From assembly GCA_030595715.1 (NCBI GenBank), contig JAUVCN010000008.1:1-47564 (forward strand): DNA of 47,564 bases. The letters run 5' to 3'. The stretch comes from Thermoplasmatales archaeon. Lineage in GTDB: Archaea; Thermoplasmatota; Penumbrarchaeia; Penumbrarchaeales; Penumbrarchaeaceae. Numbering within the stretch: position 1 is the stretch's first letter; each line of letters begins with the position of its first letter. Made by a program: the position numbers and the translations under genes. Below the pieces are notes generated by a model. That model saw nothing but the letters and a program-made list of their open reading frames with translations. It searched no databases and was not told the DNA's origin. Shown here piece by piece: positions 26,699-34,997 of this stretch.

Positions 26699-27829
26699 TC
26701 AAAGACCGAACTTCGTTCTTTCTCCCTGAATGTCCCTCAATTTCTTGACTGCCTTCTTCTCCTTCAGGGATAGATGTCTCGGAACATCGACATTGACCTT
26801 CACATAGACATCTCCGATCCTCTTCGGGTATCGGATGTCAGGCATACCTCTACCTCTTACCCTCAGGATCGAGCCAGGCTGCGTCCCTGACGGGATCTTC
26901 AATTCCATCGATCCGGTTAGCGAAGGCATCTCTACCTTTGAACCAAGGACCGCCTGTGAATATGTGATCGATATCTGGCCATGTAGGTCGTTACCATCCC
27001 TCTCGAAGAAACTGTGGGGTTTCACACCGATCATCACATAAAGGTCACCGGGTGGTGCTCCCCTTTCGCCTGCATCGCCAAGACCGGCCACTCTGAGCCG
27101 ATTGCCGTTATCAACACCTTTGGGGATGGTTATTGACTTCCCCTCGGTCTTTCTCACCTTCTTCTTTCCCCTGCATTTCTTGCATGGGGAAGAGATGATC
27201 GAACCCTCACCGTTGCACTTCGAACAGTTCTTGGTGGTAACGTATTGAACTGGACCCAGATTCCTCACGATCCTCTGTGCTCCCGAACCATGGCAACCCG
27301 GACATTCCTCCGGTTCGCTTCCGTCCTCCGAACCGTTCCCATCACATTCGGGGCAGAGGATCAGACGTTTTATCTCGATCTCCTCCTCAATACCCTTGGC
27401 TGCATCTTCAAGACTGATACTGATATGGGCGATCCTGTCATCACCCGATTGCGGACGCCTCCTGGCTCCATTCATACCTCCACCATAACCGAAAGGGTCC
27501 TCTCCTCCAAAAAAGGAGCCGAATCCACCTCCAAAGGACCTCATGAACATTCGGAGAGCATCATCGAGATTCACGTTCTGGTACTGATAACCGTGCATTC
27601 CGCCCTCATCGTCGGATGTGAATCCGTATTGATCATACTGATCCCTCTTGTCGGGATCGCTGAGCACCTCGTAGGCAGCCGTGACCTCGGTGAACTTGTC
27701 CGCTGCACTGGGATCATCCGGATTCTTGTCCGGATGATTTTTCAGAGCGAGCTTTCTGTAGGCTTTGTCCACATCGTCCTTTGTGGCATCCTTTGATAGG
27801 CCCAGGATCTCGTAGTAATCCTTCTTCAT
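26699..27829 (-). CDS. dnaJ: Chaperone DnaJ (Hsp40)
   Basis: 376 residues. The J domain (1-70) contains the HPD motif (NHPDKNP). A Gly/Phe-rich region follows (about 75-125), then a zinc-binding domain with four CxxCxGxx repeats: [24 protein letters not shown] and CKKCRGKK. C-terminal substrate-binding beta domains complete it ([22 protein letters not shown]). It stimulates DnaK ATPase and delivers unfolded clients. It is the last gene of the grpE-dnaK-dnaJ operon. A strong hairpin separates it from dnaK and may lower its expression. Confidence 0.96.
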
Positions 27830-27889: not shown

Positions 27890-29740
27890 TCATTCCGTAT
27901 CGTCTGCATCGACATCGATGTAGTCGTCGTCACTATCTTTCTCCTCGGTTTCAGGCGATGGTGGCTCCTCACCATCCGTGTCCATTGATTGGCCCGAGGC
28001 CTTGGATGCTTCTTTGTACATCTTCGTGAAGAGTTCCTGGGAGGCTTCCGAGAGCTCCTCTGTCCTCTTCTTTATCTCCTCGATATCATCGCCCTTTGAC
28101 AGTTCATCGACTTCCTTCAAAAGGGCCTCGACCTTCTCAACGTCGTCATCATCGAGCTTGTCGCGGTTCTCCTTGATCGCCCTCTCGGTCGTGAAAACCA
28201 TTGTGGAGGCATTATTCTTGACCTCGGCGGTTTCCAGTTTCTTCTTGTCCTCTTCCGCGAACTTGTCAGCATCGTCCATCATACTTTCGATGTCCTCATC
28301 GTTAAGAGCTCCCGTCCCCGATACGACGATATCCTGGGTATTGCCGGTCGCATGGTCCTTTGCGGTCACATGGACGATACCGTTCGCATCGATCTCGAAT
28401 GTCACCTCTATCTGGGGTATACCCCTGGGTGCCGGAGGTATGCCGGTCAAAGTGAACATACCCAATGTCTTGTTGTCAGCGGCCATGGGCCTCTCACCTT
28501 GAAGAACGTGGATCTCCACCTGCGGTTGGTTGTCGGATGCGGTCGAGAATGTCTTGGACTTCTTTGTTGGGATCGTGGTATTCCTGTTGATGATCTTTGT
28601 CAATACACCACCAAGGGTTTCGATCCCCAGTGAAAGTGGGGTGACATCGAGAAGGACCATGTCCTTTCCGATCTCCCCTGAAAGGACCCCTGCCTGGATC
28701 GCAGCACCGATGGCAACGCACTCATCGGGGTTGATGTTCTTGGTCGGTTCCTTTTTAAGGATACCATTGATCTTCTTCTGCACCAGAGGAATCCTTGTGG
28801 AGCCTCCGACCAGAATTACCTTGTTGATATCTGATGGGGCCAGCTTGGCATCCTTCAATGCCTGCTTGAGCGGTTTGATGGTCCTGTCAACCAGATCCGT
28901 GATCAATGATTCGAACTGTGATCTGGAGAGGTCCATCTCGATGTGCAGTGGCCCATTATCTCCCTGCGTGATGAAAGGTAATGATATCTGCGTTGTAGGT
29001 GTTCCGGAGAGTTCGATCTTGGCCTTCTCGGCAGCATCCTTCAATCTCTGGATGGCCTGCTTGTCCTTGAGAAGGTCAATACCATGCTCCTTCTTGAACT
29101 CGGATGCGATCCATTCCATGACCTTCCTATCAAAGTCATCACCTCCAAGGTGGTTGTTCCCTGATGTCGATTTCACCTGGAAGACGCCCCCTCCGATCTG
29201 AAGGATGGATACATCGAAGGTCCCACCACCAAGATCGAACACGAGGATGGTCATGTCCTCTTCCTTATCCAGACCGTAAGCAAGAGCTGCAGCCGTGGGT
29301 TCGTTGATGATCCTCTTGACCTCGAGTCCTGCTATCTTCCCGGCATCCTTTGTTGCCTGCCTCTGTGCATCCTCGAAATAAGCTGGTACGGTAATGACCG
29401 CTTCCGTGATCTTCTCTCCAAGGTAAGCCTCCGCATCCTCCTTCAACTTCTGGAGGACCATAGCTGAGATCTCCTGTGGGGTGTAACCCTTGCCAGCCAT
29501 CTTGACCTTGGTCTTCTTTCCCATTTTCCTCTTGATCGATGCGATCGTGTTATCCGGATTCGCAACTGCTTGCCTCTTTGCAAGCTCTCCAACCAATCTC
29601 TCGCCTTTCTTTGTGATTCCAACAACGGACGGTGTCGTCCTTCCCCCTTCTCTATTGGGGATCACGACGGGCTGTCCGCCTTCCATCATTGCAACCACAG
29701 AGTTTGTGGTTCCAAGATCTATACCTATTATCTTTCCCAT
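27890..29740 (-). CDS. dnaK: Chaperone DnaK (Hsp70)
   Basis: 616 residues, the normal size. The nucleotide-binding domain shows [13 protein letters not shown] at the start, [11 protein letters not shown], and [10 protein letters not shown]. The substrate-binding domain begins near [14 protein letters not shown], and the C-terminal lid ends in an acidic tail ([16 protein letters not shown]). It is an ATP-driven chaperone working with DnaJ and GrpE. In archaea the dnaK system is generally regarded as acquired from bacteria. It follows the GrpE-fusion gene by 5 bases, so it is co-transcribed. Confidence 0.98.
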
Positions 29741-29745
29741 TCATA

Positions 29746-30615
29746 TCACTCCTTTGTATCGTTATTCTTCTTCGATGATCGTAATTTCTTCTTGGCCGGT
29801 CCTTTCGGCCTTCTGTTCACAATGACCTGAGCAGGTCTGAGAGCATTTCCCTTATAGAGGTAACACTCCTTGATCTCCTTTGATATGACCTCATCTTCCA
29901 GATCCATGCTCTCCGTGTATCCGATCGCTTCGTGGAAGTTGGGATCGAAAGGCCGTCCCTCGGAAGCCATGATCTTGATCCCGATCCTGTTGAACAGGTT
30001 GAGGACCTGGTTCTCCACCATCTCGATCCCCCTCATCATGGCCACGATGTTATCCTTTGCGGAGCTGGATCTGTTGATGGACTCCTTTGCGAAGATAAAA
30101 CTGTCAAGCACATCGATGAGACCCGACCCTATCTCGATGATCTTTCGGTCTGCGATGGATTCCTTCTCGGTCTCGTGCCTTCTCCTGATGTTCTGGAAAT
30201 CCTTCTGTAGGAAATGGACCCTCTCTTCAAGTAAACTTTTTTCCTCGGACACCTTTCCGAGCTGTTCCTTAAATCTTTCCAGCTCCTTCTCGAGGGAATC
30301 CAGGGAAATGGAAAGTTCCTCCTCTTCGGTCTTTTCGATCTTCGTTTCCTTCGAGTCCTTTCTTTTCATGTCCACTTCCAGTACACCCTGGGAGAATGTT
30401 ACGGATATTCTTTCAGGGTCCGGTTCGAAGGATATTACCTGGACAGTACTGAACTTCCCTCTCTTTCCTTCGGCGTCAACCTTCAATATGTCCGAGGATA
30501 CTCCCATCTTGATGGAATCCTGTGTAACACCCGGAAGCTCCACAATGAGCCGGGCTCCATCAACTGTCTCTTCGACCTGGGCCACCGGTTCTCTCACATC
30601 TTCGCCGTCCGCCAT
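29746..30615 (-). CDS. grpE: GrpE nucleotide-exchange factor with N-terminal Hsp20-like domain
   Basis: 289 residues. The C-terminal two thirds are GrpE: a long coiled coil (about 98-155), a helical segment (RKIIEIGSGLIDVLDSF), and the beta head with FDPNFHEAIGY (223-233) and LRPAQVIVNRRP (259-270). Residues 11-86 do not belong to GrpE. They read like an alpha-crystallin/Hsp20 domain: QVEETVDGARLIVELPGV, DSIKMGVSSDILKVDAEG, then FSQGVLEVDMKRK, matching the ELPGV and GVLEV marks. The fusion could give the DnaK machine a holdase arm. GGAGG lies 9 bases before the ATG. First gene of the operon. Confidence 0.9.
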   Translation of the reverse strand: MADGEDVREPVAQVEETVDGARLIVELPGVTQDSIKMGVSSDILKVDAEGKRGKFSTVQVISFEPDPERISVTFSQGVLEVDMKRKDSKETKIEKTEEEELSISLDSLEKELERFKEQLGKVSEEKSLLEERVHFLQKDFQNIRRRHETEKESIADRKIIEIGSGLIDVLDSFIFAKESINRSSSAKDNIVAMMRGIEMVENQVLNLFNRIGIKIMASEGRPFDPNFHEAIGYTESMDLEDEVISKEIKECYLYKGNALRPAQVIVNRRPKGPAKKKLRSSKKNNDTKE

Positions 30616-30665
30616 CTTTACTATCCTCCTGTATACAACTTCAGGTTGTTATCCTATACATTACC

Positions 30666-30695
30666 TAACAAGGTGGTATTATTTAAAGCTTGTTA
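30666..30695 (-). promoter_or_regulatory. Inverted repeat around the TATA box of the chaperone operon
   Basis: TAACAAG (30666-30672) and CTTGTTA (30689-30695) form a perfect 7-bp inverted repeat with a 16-base spacer containing a TATA-like element (TTTAAATAAT on the (-) strand). The position, about 50 bases upstream of the GrpE-fusion ATG, suits a repressor operator controlling the heat-shock operon. A second small hairpin (ACAAC TTCAG GTTGT, 30635-30649) lies in the leader. Confidence 0.5.
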
Positions 30696-31365: not shown

Positions 31366-31461
31366 TAGAAATTGACTTGGTGCCCCCACCATAGGATTGC
31401 TTCGTTTGTATGGCATATATGATAATGTTTTTATCTCCTGGTCCTATAGGCATCACGTACG

Positions 31462-31478
31462 AGGGGTTCCATACCCCT
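31462..31478 (+). promoter_or_regulatory. Leader hairpin before the large surface protein
   Basis: AGGGGT, a five-base loop and ACCCCT form a perfect 6-bp stem 21 bases before the ATG at 31500. A TATA-like CATATATGATAA at about 31413-31424 lies upstream, so the hairpin would be in the mRNA leader. Function unknown. Confidence 0.3.
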
Positions 31479-31499
31479 TACCATGGTCCCGGTGGTAAA

Positions 31500-34400
31500 A
31501 TGTTCAGTGGATCGAAGATTCGGAGGCCCGTCCTCCTTCTGGTTCTCGGAATTCTGCTCAGCGCACCCCTCTTCACGGGTGTTCAGGATGTGTCAGCAGC
31601 ATCCAAGCTTCCAAGCGGTTTCGAGAGTGTGTCATATCAAGATATGACCTCAATTAACAAGGTAACGTTGATCGATCACGATGGAGAGGGCATCCTGGAT
31701 GACTTCGCATATCTTGCGGAAGTGCCAGCCTCCTCCTTCCACTCGGATAGTGATGACAGGGTATTCATGAACCCGGTCCTCTTCTATGAACCTCCCATGA
31801 CAACATCGGATGTGGAAAGGACCTTCGACACATATCCAGGTGTGAAATACTTCATGGAGGACATGGCAACACTTTCAGGGACAGAACTGGACAAGATCGA
31901 ACTTGTCAATTTCAACGGTGAAACACCAGGGGATGTTCAATCCGACTGGACCGCATCCAGGGTGAAGCATATAGATGATGATGATCCGTTCTCGATGTCC
32001 GCCAAGATAGCTCTTGAGAACTGGGAATATTCAGATACGGCAGTGGTTGCGGTTGTCGATCATGATCCGGAACCATTTGAAGAGACAATTTCAGGAGAGG
32101 TCGGAGGAAGGACCCCGGATTCTACCCCCATCTCGGGATCCGTCACGGGAACGAAGCAGCCTTCACCGGTCGATCCGAATACTCACGAATTCTCCATCGA
32201 TACCGATTACAAGTACATATCCTCACAGCTCACCTGGGGGAAGAGCTGGAATCCCCTCTCAAGTATAACCGAAAGAGGGAAGGACCCTGACCTGCAGCTC
32301 TATGACATGCAACTTGGAATGGTTGGAGCCAGCGAGAAATGGAATGTCCTGGAAGGAGCATCGGAGGAGATCAGCTCCTACATCTATAATCCAGGTGAAT
32401 GGGAGTTTGCAGTCACTTACATGCCAACTGAGAACTCGCTTGTCCACATGGATGAGGAATGGTCCTGGAACTCATTGCCCCTCCCCTCCGAGGTCACACC
32501 GCGGGAAAGGGACGAATGGCAGAGGAACAGGATCATAGATGTAATGCGTGACAGGGAAGAACGTGGACTCGATCCCGATGCCCTTTTCGATTCAACCGTT
32601 GAATACACCATCGATTACATCCTCTATCCCGGGATCGATGTTCCGGAACCTATCTCCACTCCCTTTTATTGCAGGGATGCAACATTCACCCTGGAATGGT
32701 CGGATAACTCCCAGGACCTGGGGCTGATACTCAGAGGACCTTCCGGAGCGGAGATCGCGGTAGCCACCGGAGCCGCTTCTGGAACCACACAGATAATAGA
32801 GGTTCCGGAGCTGGGAGACGGGGACTATACGGTATCCGTGGTAAATCTGGGAGGAGGCTCCAAAGCCACTGATTTCAAGGTCACCTATCAGTTCAAACAG
32901 TTGAAGGAAAGATGGGAGGGAACATCATGGGCCGGAGCTGCCAACGGAGCGGTCATCGCAACAGCCCTCAATGCGCCTCTCCTCTTCTCGGGAAAGAAAG
33001 GGCTCAGCGATGAGGTCGGCTCGGCCATCAACACACTTGGGGTCGATAAGGTCTATTTGATCGACCTTGACGGTCATTCGGGGGACAAGGTCGAAAAGGA
33101 CATAAAGGGCCAGAGAGGACTGGTCCAGAGAATGATCGGAAAGGGGATCTCCGTAACCACATACGATGACTTCGATGGACTCTATGGGGCTGTAAGGAAG
33201 TTCACGACCATCGACGGCGTGAAGAACAGGGACATCGTCTTCACCACTATCAACCCGTGGACTTCATGGAATGTATTGGAGGGAAGAGATGCCTCTGGCA
33301 ATCCCGGAGCAGAGGTGCCGGGAGCCCTGTTCATCGGCCCTGCGGCCCTTGCAGCGGCCATACATGGGGCGCCTGTTTTCGTGAACGATGTCCATTCCGA
33401 GCTGTCATGCGCACAGGCCTGGCATAATGAGTTCTGGGTCTATGCATACCATCACAACAGGGCACCGCCATCGGTGGCCTGCATGGTCTTGACAGCGAAA
33501 GAGGTATACTACAAGGTGATCGACAGATATGGGTTCGATATCAAGACCCCTGTCGATGAAGAGGGTAAATGCAAGGAATCCATCATCACGGTCGCCGATC
33601 AATTCGATATAGGCTCCTCATGGGACAGGGGATTCGTCGGCGGTGCCGATACTGGCAGGATCATGGGAACTCCCGTTGATACATCTGTCTGGATATCGCG
33701 GTCCCTACTGTATCCCAAACTTGCATATGCCAATCCTGCGATCAATCCTGAATTGGATGAATATGATGGCATGAGGATACAGGGGTCGAGTTCCACCAGA
33801 AGGGCCGGAGCCCTTGTTATCACGGAAGAGGAACATGAAGAGAAAGTGGATTTCCCTGTTGTTCAGACATGGGTGTCCTACCAATACAAGTTCAACGAGC
33901 AGGCGAGCGAATACTGGGGATGTGAATACATAACCAGGACAGGTATCACACCTTTCTTCGATGGATCATCAGCCACCGACCCGGATGGCATAGACCCGGA
34001 CGGCAACTATCCTGACCTGGATTCTTCGGAGATCATACCTCACTATCTGGAGGCCTGTGGATATGACAATGTCTTTACCACCACGTTCGAAAAGACCATG
34101 GAAAACCTCAACAGAGGCAGTATCATGTGGCTTGAGGTCATGCATGGAGGCCATACAAGCTCCGGTGTACTGGGCTGGTGGGACGAGAGAGGGGCCAGTG
34201 AACCTGAACCCTGGAGAGGATACGAGGAAGCTGGCATCCCGATCGGAACCCAGACCATGAGGCTCAGAGGAGCGACAGATGATCCCGATGTCGTTACGAT
34301 GTCGAAACATGTCGGACTCGACATCACACCCGGATTCGGCCCTCAGACCGATGTAGGCATAATTCCCGAGAGGCATGATGGCGTTGTCATCGCCATTGCT

Positions 34401-34997
34401 CAGCAGGGGCAGACCGAATACAGCGAGAACGGGCTGGCAATGGATGATGCCCTGGAAAATCTGCATTCCATGGGATTCTCGGCAGGTTCCTGCCTTATAG
34501 CGAACACATATCTCCACCTGATGCTTGTGAGGCACGGTTCGATATTCCAGGTCATCGACCCATGGCTGACATCGTGGTATTCCGCCTTTGCCATGAATAT
34601 GTTCGTCAGGGACATCTACTATGGAAGGACCATCGGAGATGCATACGAGAGAGGCATCTCCCATGTCGGTATAGAATACCTCATCGATGGCTGGTGGTGG
34701 GACATCTTCGAGAACCTCGTCTACTATGGCGATCCCGACCTCAGGATATTCTCACCACAGAATCCCTGGGAAGAACCGGAACACCTTCAGAAGGGAGCAG
34801 TGATAGATGGACATTCACCCTACGGGGCAAGAGACCATCCAAATGCCATTGGAAACGGGTTGATATGGGATGTAGTTGCCCTCCTGGTAGTGATCGGTAT
34901 TATCTCTGCAGGCGCATACGTTGCAATGAAATACAAGAAGGGTGAGAATGTTCCGCTCATTGACAGGTTCATCAACCGGAAACAACAACCCCTCTAA
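31500..34997 (+). CDS. Large surface protein with CWB2-like and C25-protease-like regions
   Basis: 1165 residues from ATG 31500, chosen for GGTGG just upstream and the typical signal peptide (RRPVLLLVLGILLSAP...VSAAS, about 7-35). A segment near 474-535 (AANGAVIATALNAPLLFSG, LGVDKVYLIDLDGHSGD) resembles cell-wall-binding repeat 2. The C-terminal third resembles gingipain-type (C25) peptidases: MHGGH (His882 and His885), GFSAGSCL (Cys998), later TIGDAYERG and YYGDPDLRIF. The His-Cys spacing is larger than in gingipains, so activity is uncertain. A membrane helix near the C-terminus (IWDVVALLVVIGIISAGAYV) and a basic tail anchor it to the membrane. Confidence 0.75.
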   Translation: MFSGSKIRRPVLLLVLGILLSAPLFTGVQDVSAASKLPSGFESVSYQDMTSINKVTLIDHDGEGILDDFAYLAEVPASSFHSDSDDRVFMNPVLFYEPPMTTSDVERTFDTYPGVKYFMEDMATLSGTELDKIELVNFNGETPGDVQSDWTASRVKHIDDDDPFSMSAKIALENWEYSDTAVVAVVDHDPEPFEETISGEVGGRTPDSTPISGSVTGTKQPSPVDPNTHEFSIDTDYKYISSQLTWGKSWNPLSSITERGKDPDLQLYDMQLGMVGASEKWNVLEGASEEISSYIYNPGEWEFAVTYMPTENSLVHMDEEWSWNSLPLPSEVTPRERDEWQRNRIIDVMRDREERGLDPDALFDSTVEYTIDYILYPGIDVPEPISTPFYCRDATFTLEWSDNSQDLGLILRGPSGAEIAVATGAASGTTQIIEVPELGDGDYTVSVVNLGGGSKATDFKVTYQFKQLKERWEGTSWAGAANGAVIATALNAPLLFSGKKGLSDEVGSAINTLGVDKVYLIDLDGHSGDKVEKDIKGQRGLVQRMIGKGISVTTYDDFDGLYGAVRKFTTIDGVKNRDIVFTTINPWTSWNVLEGRDASGNPGAEVPGALFIGPAALAAAIHGAPVFVNDVHSELSCAQAWHNEFWVYAYHHNRAPPSVACMVLTAKEVYYKVIDRYGFDIKTPVDEEGKCKESIITVADQFDIGSSWDRGFVGGADTGRIMGTPVDTSVWISRSLLYPKLAYANPAINPELDEYDGMRIQGSSSTRRAGALVITEEEHEEKVDFPVVQTWVSYQYKFNEQASEYWGCEYITRTGITPFFDGSSATDPDGIDPDGNYPDLDSSEIIPHYLEACGYDNVFTTTFEKTMENLNRGSIMWLEVMHGGHTSSGVLGWWDERGASEPEPWRGYEEAGIPIGTQTMRLRGATDDPDVVTMSKHVGLDITPGFGPQTDVGIIPERHDGVVIAIAQQGQTEYSENGLAMDDALENLHSMGFSAGSCLIANTYLHLMLVRHGSIFQVIDPWLTSWYSAFAMNMFVRDIYYGRTIGDAYERGISHVGIEYLIDGWWWDIFENLVYYGDPDLRIFSPQNPWEEPEHLQKGAVIDGHSPYGARDHPNAIGNGLIWDVVALLVVIGIISAGAYVAMKYKKGENVPLIDRFINRKQQPL

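Follow-up and report, generated by a model that had tools for sequence, protein, structure and literature searches.

A gene at the head of a dnaK operon in the window, the whole 47,564-nucleotide stretch of archaeal DNA analysed here (contig JAUVCN010000008.1, Penumbrarchaeaceae), encodes a protein of 289 amino acids, in which a complete GrpE is preceded by a fused alpha-crystallin domain of the Hsp20 type. Hsp20 and GrpE are normally separate proteins. Both halves belong to known families. Judged by the open-access literature, in which no published Hsp20-GrpE fusion was found, the architecture that joins them is new. The original prediction of an Hsp20-like domain joined to GrpE in front of dnaK is borne out by sequence profiles, by the predicted fold and by the dnaK and dnaJ genes downstream; its locus does hold the open reading frame, and the strand is corrected here to minus. 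We describe the fusion and its conservation, outline its distribution and likely origin, and discuss what the attached domain may do at DnaK.

Gene and operon organization

The fusion gene and its neighbours comprise the following features (window positions, all on the minus strand):

30679..30687, minus: TATA-like box TTTAAATAA, about 65-70 nt 5' of the fusion ATG (direct reading)
30625..30629, minus: Shine-Dalgarno-like GGAGG, 9 nt 5' of the fusion ATG (direct sequence reading)
29746..30615, minus: Hsp20(alpha-crystallin domain)-GrpE fusion gene, 289 aa
30358..30591, minus: alpha-crystallin domain, residues ~9-86 (Pfam/NCBIfam, AlphaFold2, Foldseek to 4rzk)
30304..30357, minus: linker, variable and mostly disordered, residues 87-104 (pLDDT < 50 at 88-102; highest dN/dS of the three regions)
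29815..30303, minus: GrpE, with long helix 105-182, helix 186-211 and C-terminal beta domain to 267 (PF01025, AlphaFold2, Foldseek)
29749..29814, minus: C-terminal tail, basic and predicted to be disordered, residues 268-289 (pLDDT < 50 at 273-289)
27890..29740, minus: dnaK (Hsp70), 616 aa (PF00012, E 1.2e-244; same gene order in 7 relatives)
26699..27829, minus: dnaJ, 376 aa (PF00226, PF00684, PF01556)

The fusion reading frame runs uninterrupted from its ATG at 30615 to 29746, over 289 codons without an internal stop, and only 5 nt separate its stop codon from the start of dnaK, with dnaJ next downstream. The TATA-like box is a candidate archaeal promoter of the operon. Between this box and the ribosome-binding site lies an inverted repeat, ACAAC-CTGAA-GTTGT (30635-30649), which may be an operator or a product of chance. 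Elsewhere in the window, positions 31410-34997 hold a 1195-aa open reading frame without any Pfam match, the ends of which predict a secreted or membrane-anchored protein.

The window genome harbours a second dnaK system (L031:1982-6478, G000:C102), composed of a GrpE that is charged at its N-terminus and acidic in its C-terminal tail, a longer DnaK encoded by a 750-aa frame, and dnaJ. The DnaK of this second system aligns to the Hsp70 profile without a break; the window DnaK skips approximately 24 profile positions (75-98).

An alpha-crystallin core joined to a complete GrpE

The N-terminal part of the protein is assigned by profile and by structure. PF00011 matches the isolated residues 1-99 with 23.6 bits (E 5.6e-5, curated cut-off 20.8) over residues 19-94; in a scan of the complete chain the score is 19.3 bits, just below that cut-off. 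The NCBIfam model for archaeal Hsp20, NF041800, recognizes the isolated domain with an E-value of 6.1e-16, the match spanning positions 69-157 of its 162, while its equivalog level is missed (58.4 bits versus a cut-off of 140). Among solved structures the top sequence match of the N-terminus is 4rzk, the core of Sulfolobus solfataricus Hsp20.1 (E 9.8e-7). The motifs pointed out in the original prediction, ELPGV at residues 26-30, ILKVDAEG at 43-50 and GVLEV at 77-81, are all found at these positions.

The AlphaFold2 model, computed from an input alignment of 8 sequences and as a monomer only, shows a seven-stranded beta sandwich at residues 12-85 with a pLDDT of about 80, i.e., a confident alpha-crystallin fold rather than a disordered or unrelated segment. 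Modelled alone, the domain forms identical strands, and Foldseek superimposes it on 4rzk with an rmsd of 1.2-1.3 Å over 81 columns (TM 0.84). The full-length model has a pTM of 0.37, a low value to be expected of a monomer in which the domains are flexibly joined, and the relative placement of the domains in it carries no meaning.

The GrpE half had been called complete, and the long helix, the helical region and the beta domain are indeed all present. PF01025 matches residues 106-267 with 113 bits (E 1.5e-32, curated cut-off 25.8), and the structures 3a6m, 1dkg and 4ani are retrieved by Foldseek. Both halves of the fusion are thus recovered by the HMM searches that had been proposed, the Hsp20 match being obtained with the isolated N-terminus and the GrpE match being strong.

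The Hsp20 half is a core without its usual extensions. The match to NF041800 begins only at position 69 and merely about 8 residues precede the core, and thus, the Hsp20 N-terminal region is absent. Likewise absent is the C-terminal I/V-x-I/V tail that links oligomers, as the core has no free C-terminus and is followed by the residues KRKDSKETKIEKTEEEE. Separate Hsp20 relatives, in contrast, have a long N-terminal region and tails such as FKIKVQ. In many small heat shock proteins, clients are bound and oligomers assembled in large part through the N-terminal region. Since it is gone together with the IxI tail, the name "small heat shock protein" does not suit the fusion, the fused part of which is a tethered alpha-crystallin core. 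An isolated core of this kind may be a weak holdase, and given how far it is stripped, classical oligomeric holdase behaviour is not to be assumed. Of the "Hsp20 holdase arm" originally envisaged, the alpha-crystallin core therefore stands, and the N-terminal region and the IxI tail do not.

Conservation within the family

Every genome of the family encodes the fusion (8/8 with the window); in the seven besides that of the window, it has 46-58% identity and lies directly 5' of dnaK. The same order is found on seven public contigs (labelled CSMAG, Zod_Metabat, SW_4_56 and M17C-73-04), all from Thermoplasmatota, where the fusion directly precedes dnaK and dnaJ also occurs in the flanking stretch of five, some stretches being cut by contig ends.

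For three pairs of sequences with usable dS, Nei-Gojobori counting yielded dN/dS ratios of 0.067, 0.137 and 0.065 in the Hsp20 domain, of 0.056, 0.247 and 0.186 in GrpE, and of 0.165, 0.302 and 0.269 in the linker, the third pair being approximate with a dS near 1.1. The Hsp20 domain is shown to be under purifying selection; it is constrained about as strictly as GrpE, or more, and the linker is looser.

A sequencing or assembly error that joined two genes, including the frameshifted merger against which the original prediction had cautioned, has a negligible probability and is rejected: beyond the unusualness of the fusion it is favoured only by the metagenome-assembled nature of the genomes, whereas the seven relatives come from several sequencing projects, codon-level conservation extends throughout the domain, and a ribosome-binding site is found at the fused start only. 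An internal start that would yield a free GrpE is equally unsupported, as Met84 is lost in some relatives and is not preceded by a clear ribosome-binding site.

Distribution and origin of the fusion

Full-length fusions occur in 10 of 390 sampled genomes of the phylum, all belonging to the class of the window; among the matches listed, where fusions score highest, there is none outside this class. The N-terminal Hsp20 domain, which the original prediction had suggested surveying in other Thermoplasmatota grpE genes, is hence common to the family and rare beyond it. The class is represented by 12 genomes in the collection, and 10/12 have a full-length fusion match. The search profile was built from sequences including all ten fusions, and the distant members G009 and G011 were therefore checked separately. 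The N-terminus of G011 is a clear Hsp20 core (NF041800, 1e-15). That of G009 has no family match, reaches an hhalign probability of 78% and is poorly conserved; G009 is counted as a probable fusion. Within the class the fusion is absent from G008 (80% complete) and from G010, and since G010 retains the sister DnaK, the arm is dispensable within the class. A plasmid search returned 56 matching records, none of which extends beyond the GrpE half at 80% query coverage.

Outside the class, a separate hsp20 gene lies directly 5' of grpE in G017, G018, G028, G253 and G256, which represent four other families and approximately 5 of the 36 or so distinct genomes in which the grpE flank is covered. Such adjacency is far more frequent than would be expected if a few hsp20 genes were scattered at random. 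In G253 and G256, both from one family, the two genes share a frame and are separated by a single in-frame stop codon, an arrangement that reads as a natural precursor state of the fusion.

In the GrpE tree the family fusions group with G009 (98/88). In the DnaK tree, the DnaK beside the G011 fusion belongs to another clade, and a topology that unites all fusion-linked DnaKs in one clade is rejected (p-AU 0.011), which points to an independent gain in G011; with the shorter GrpE alignment a single fusion clade is not rejected (p-AU 0.068). A single origin of all fusions is thus disfavoured for G011, and two independent fusions are likely, not certain, a reading on which the estimated 7% contamination of G011 also bears.

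Proposed role at DnaK and alternative explanations

GrpE N-terminal tails bind DnaK at its substrate-binding domain and promote the release of clients (PMC12915176), and with M. tuberculosis GrpE lacking the tail release is blocked (PMC10803776). Small heat shock proteins, in turn, hand clients to Hsp70 (PMC9133787). The reading preferred here, to which we assign an even chance, places client holding or exchange at DnaK through the fusion, which would couple holding and refolding in one particle. The usual disordered tail is replaced by a folded alpha-crystallin domain of archaeal Hsp20 origin, and a GrpE dimer would carry two such domains per particle on flexible linkers. These domains would sit at the ends of the long helices, which in known GrpE-DnaK complexes lie against the DnaK substrate-binding domain. 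The paired domains could bind exposed client segments and pass them on to the substrate-binding domain, or accept them from it, while GrpE would drive ADP release from DnaK.

That the fused domain binds clients and hands them to DnaK is what we infer from several lines of evidence. The coupling is strengthened by purifying selection, the probable second fusion, the hsp20-grpE pairs in four families and published work that locates the N-terminus of GrpE at the substrate-binding domain of DnaK; it is weakened by the loss of the N-terminal region, the lack of a clear IxI tail, the poor conservation of the G009 domain and the absence of the fusion from G010.

Alternatively, the fused domain might be a docking adaptor that, instead of holding clients itself, brings client-laden oligomers of stand-alone Hsp20 to DnaK, either through IxI tails bound in its beta4/beta8 groove or through mixed dimers. 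This unlikely explanation would be a covalent parallel to eukaryotic BAG3, which links Hsp70 with small heat shock proteins (PMC6297355). In its favour, one or more stand-alone Hsp20 proteins were detected by a profile search in G002, G003, G004, G007, G008, G009 and G011, and several of them terminate in an IxI-like tail. Yet the window genome (95.6% complete), G001, G005 and G006 all carry the fusion and no stand-alone Hsp20 was found in them, a result that is provisional, because the non-exhaustive profile search also missed the window fusion. Tandem archaeal Hsp20 genes with overlapping ends occur in the sister family (L153:3-1113 and L154:1176-2415; G009, G008).

A structural or thermosensing arm is also improbable. 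Pairing of the domains would clamp the ends of the GrpE coiled coil without binding clients, and would tune coiled-coil stability or the temperature response as well as how readily the linker reaches the substrate site of DnaK. Alpha-crystallin domains commonly dimerise. Moreover, every family linker retains a small hydrophobic stretch (ISL, VPV, VAV, VKI or VTL), which could still serve as the pseudo-substrate of the tail, although hydrophobic triplets are frequent in linkers by chance. Unfolding of the GrpE coiled coil adjusts the tail contacts with temperature (PMC12915176), which favours this explanation; however, the explanation does not account for why an Hsp20 domain in particular was recruited, probably at least twice, nor for the separate hsp20 genes in front of grpE elsewhere.

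A CS/p23-like docking domain that contacts another co-chaperone and resembles Hsp20 in structure only is very unlikely and is rejected as an identity, since the structures 6khv and 1ejf also match in Foldseek but rank lower, the sequence profiles strongly favour archaeal Hsp20, the nearest solved structure is an archaeal Hsp20 core, and the CS domain PF04969 has no match in a Pfam scan of the window protein.

Comparison with known systems

The GrpE proteins of E. coli, Geobacillus, Thermus and M. tuberculosis share with the fusion the long helix, the helical bundle, the beta domain and the dnaK-dnaJ operon, but bear a disordered N-terminal tail in place of a folded alpha-crystallin domain and a short linker. 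Archaeal Hsp20 (NF041800; 4rzk) shares the alpha-crystallin core and the GVL signature, whereas NF041800 positions 1-68 and the C-terminal tail are missing in the fusion, and the core is joined to GrpE.

In animals, BAG3 with HSPB8 or HSPB6 similarly couples an Hsp70 nucleotide exchange factor to a small-heat-shock-protein module. The BAG domain employed by BAG3 is unrelated, however, and the IPV motifs of BAG3 bind Hsp20s that are separate proteins, while the coupling in the window fusion is covalent; no BAG domain appears among the Pfam hits of the window protein, and the resemblance is functional only. ArsA/Get3 with a C-terminal Hsp20-like domain (PF17886) is another case of such a domain on a non-Hsp20 protein, yet the partner is an ATPase unrelated to GrpE, and PF17886 matches the window domain weakly (E 0.11). 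DnaJ-Fer of Thaumarchaeota is likewise an archaeal DnaK co-chaperone with an extra fused domain, combining a J-domain with ferredoxin rather than GrpE with Hsp20 (PMC3564930).

Implications

A further GrpE paralogue of the window genome (L032:6336-7316, G000:C83) has an N-terminal domain with two CxxC pairs. This domain resembles the HNH zinc fold, with PF01844 matches of 0.0016-0.008 that fall short of the cut-off, and seems to have lost the usual His. This type is conserved in six family genomes (also L039, L041, L042, L043 and L044), and no dnaK adjoins it in the stretches read. The N-terminal arms of GrpE look modular in the family, and the fusion together with the GrpE paralogues suggests that the arm is a swappable module.

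We tentatively propose, as a broader reading that we regard as somewhat doubtful in its entirety, a covalent hybrid of small heat shock protein and nucleotide exchange factor that arose at least two times in archaea and would fill the role of BAG3 plus HSPB8 in one protein: alpha-crystallin arms would replace the GrpE pseudo-substrate tails, supply DnaK with clients and, in some species, replace free Hsp20. The fusion in this respect suggests convergence with animal BAG3. Studies of client hand-off from small heat shock proteins to Hsp70 work with mixtures in which the oligomers are separate and heterogeneous. In a natural fusion, stoichiometry and geometry are fixed, and this hand-off would become testable in one defined dimer by simple domain deletions.
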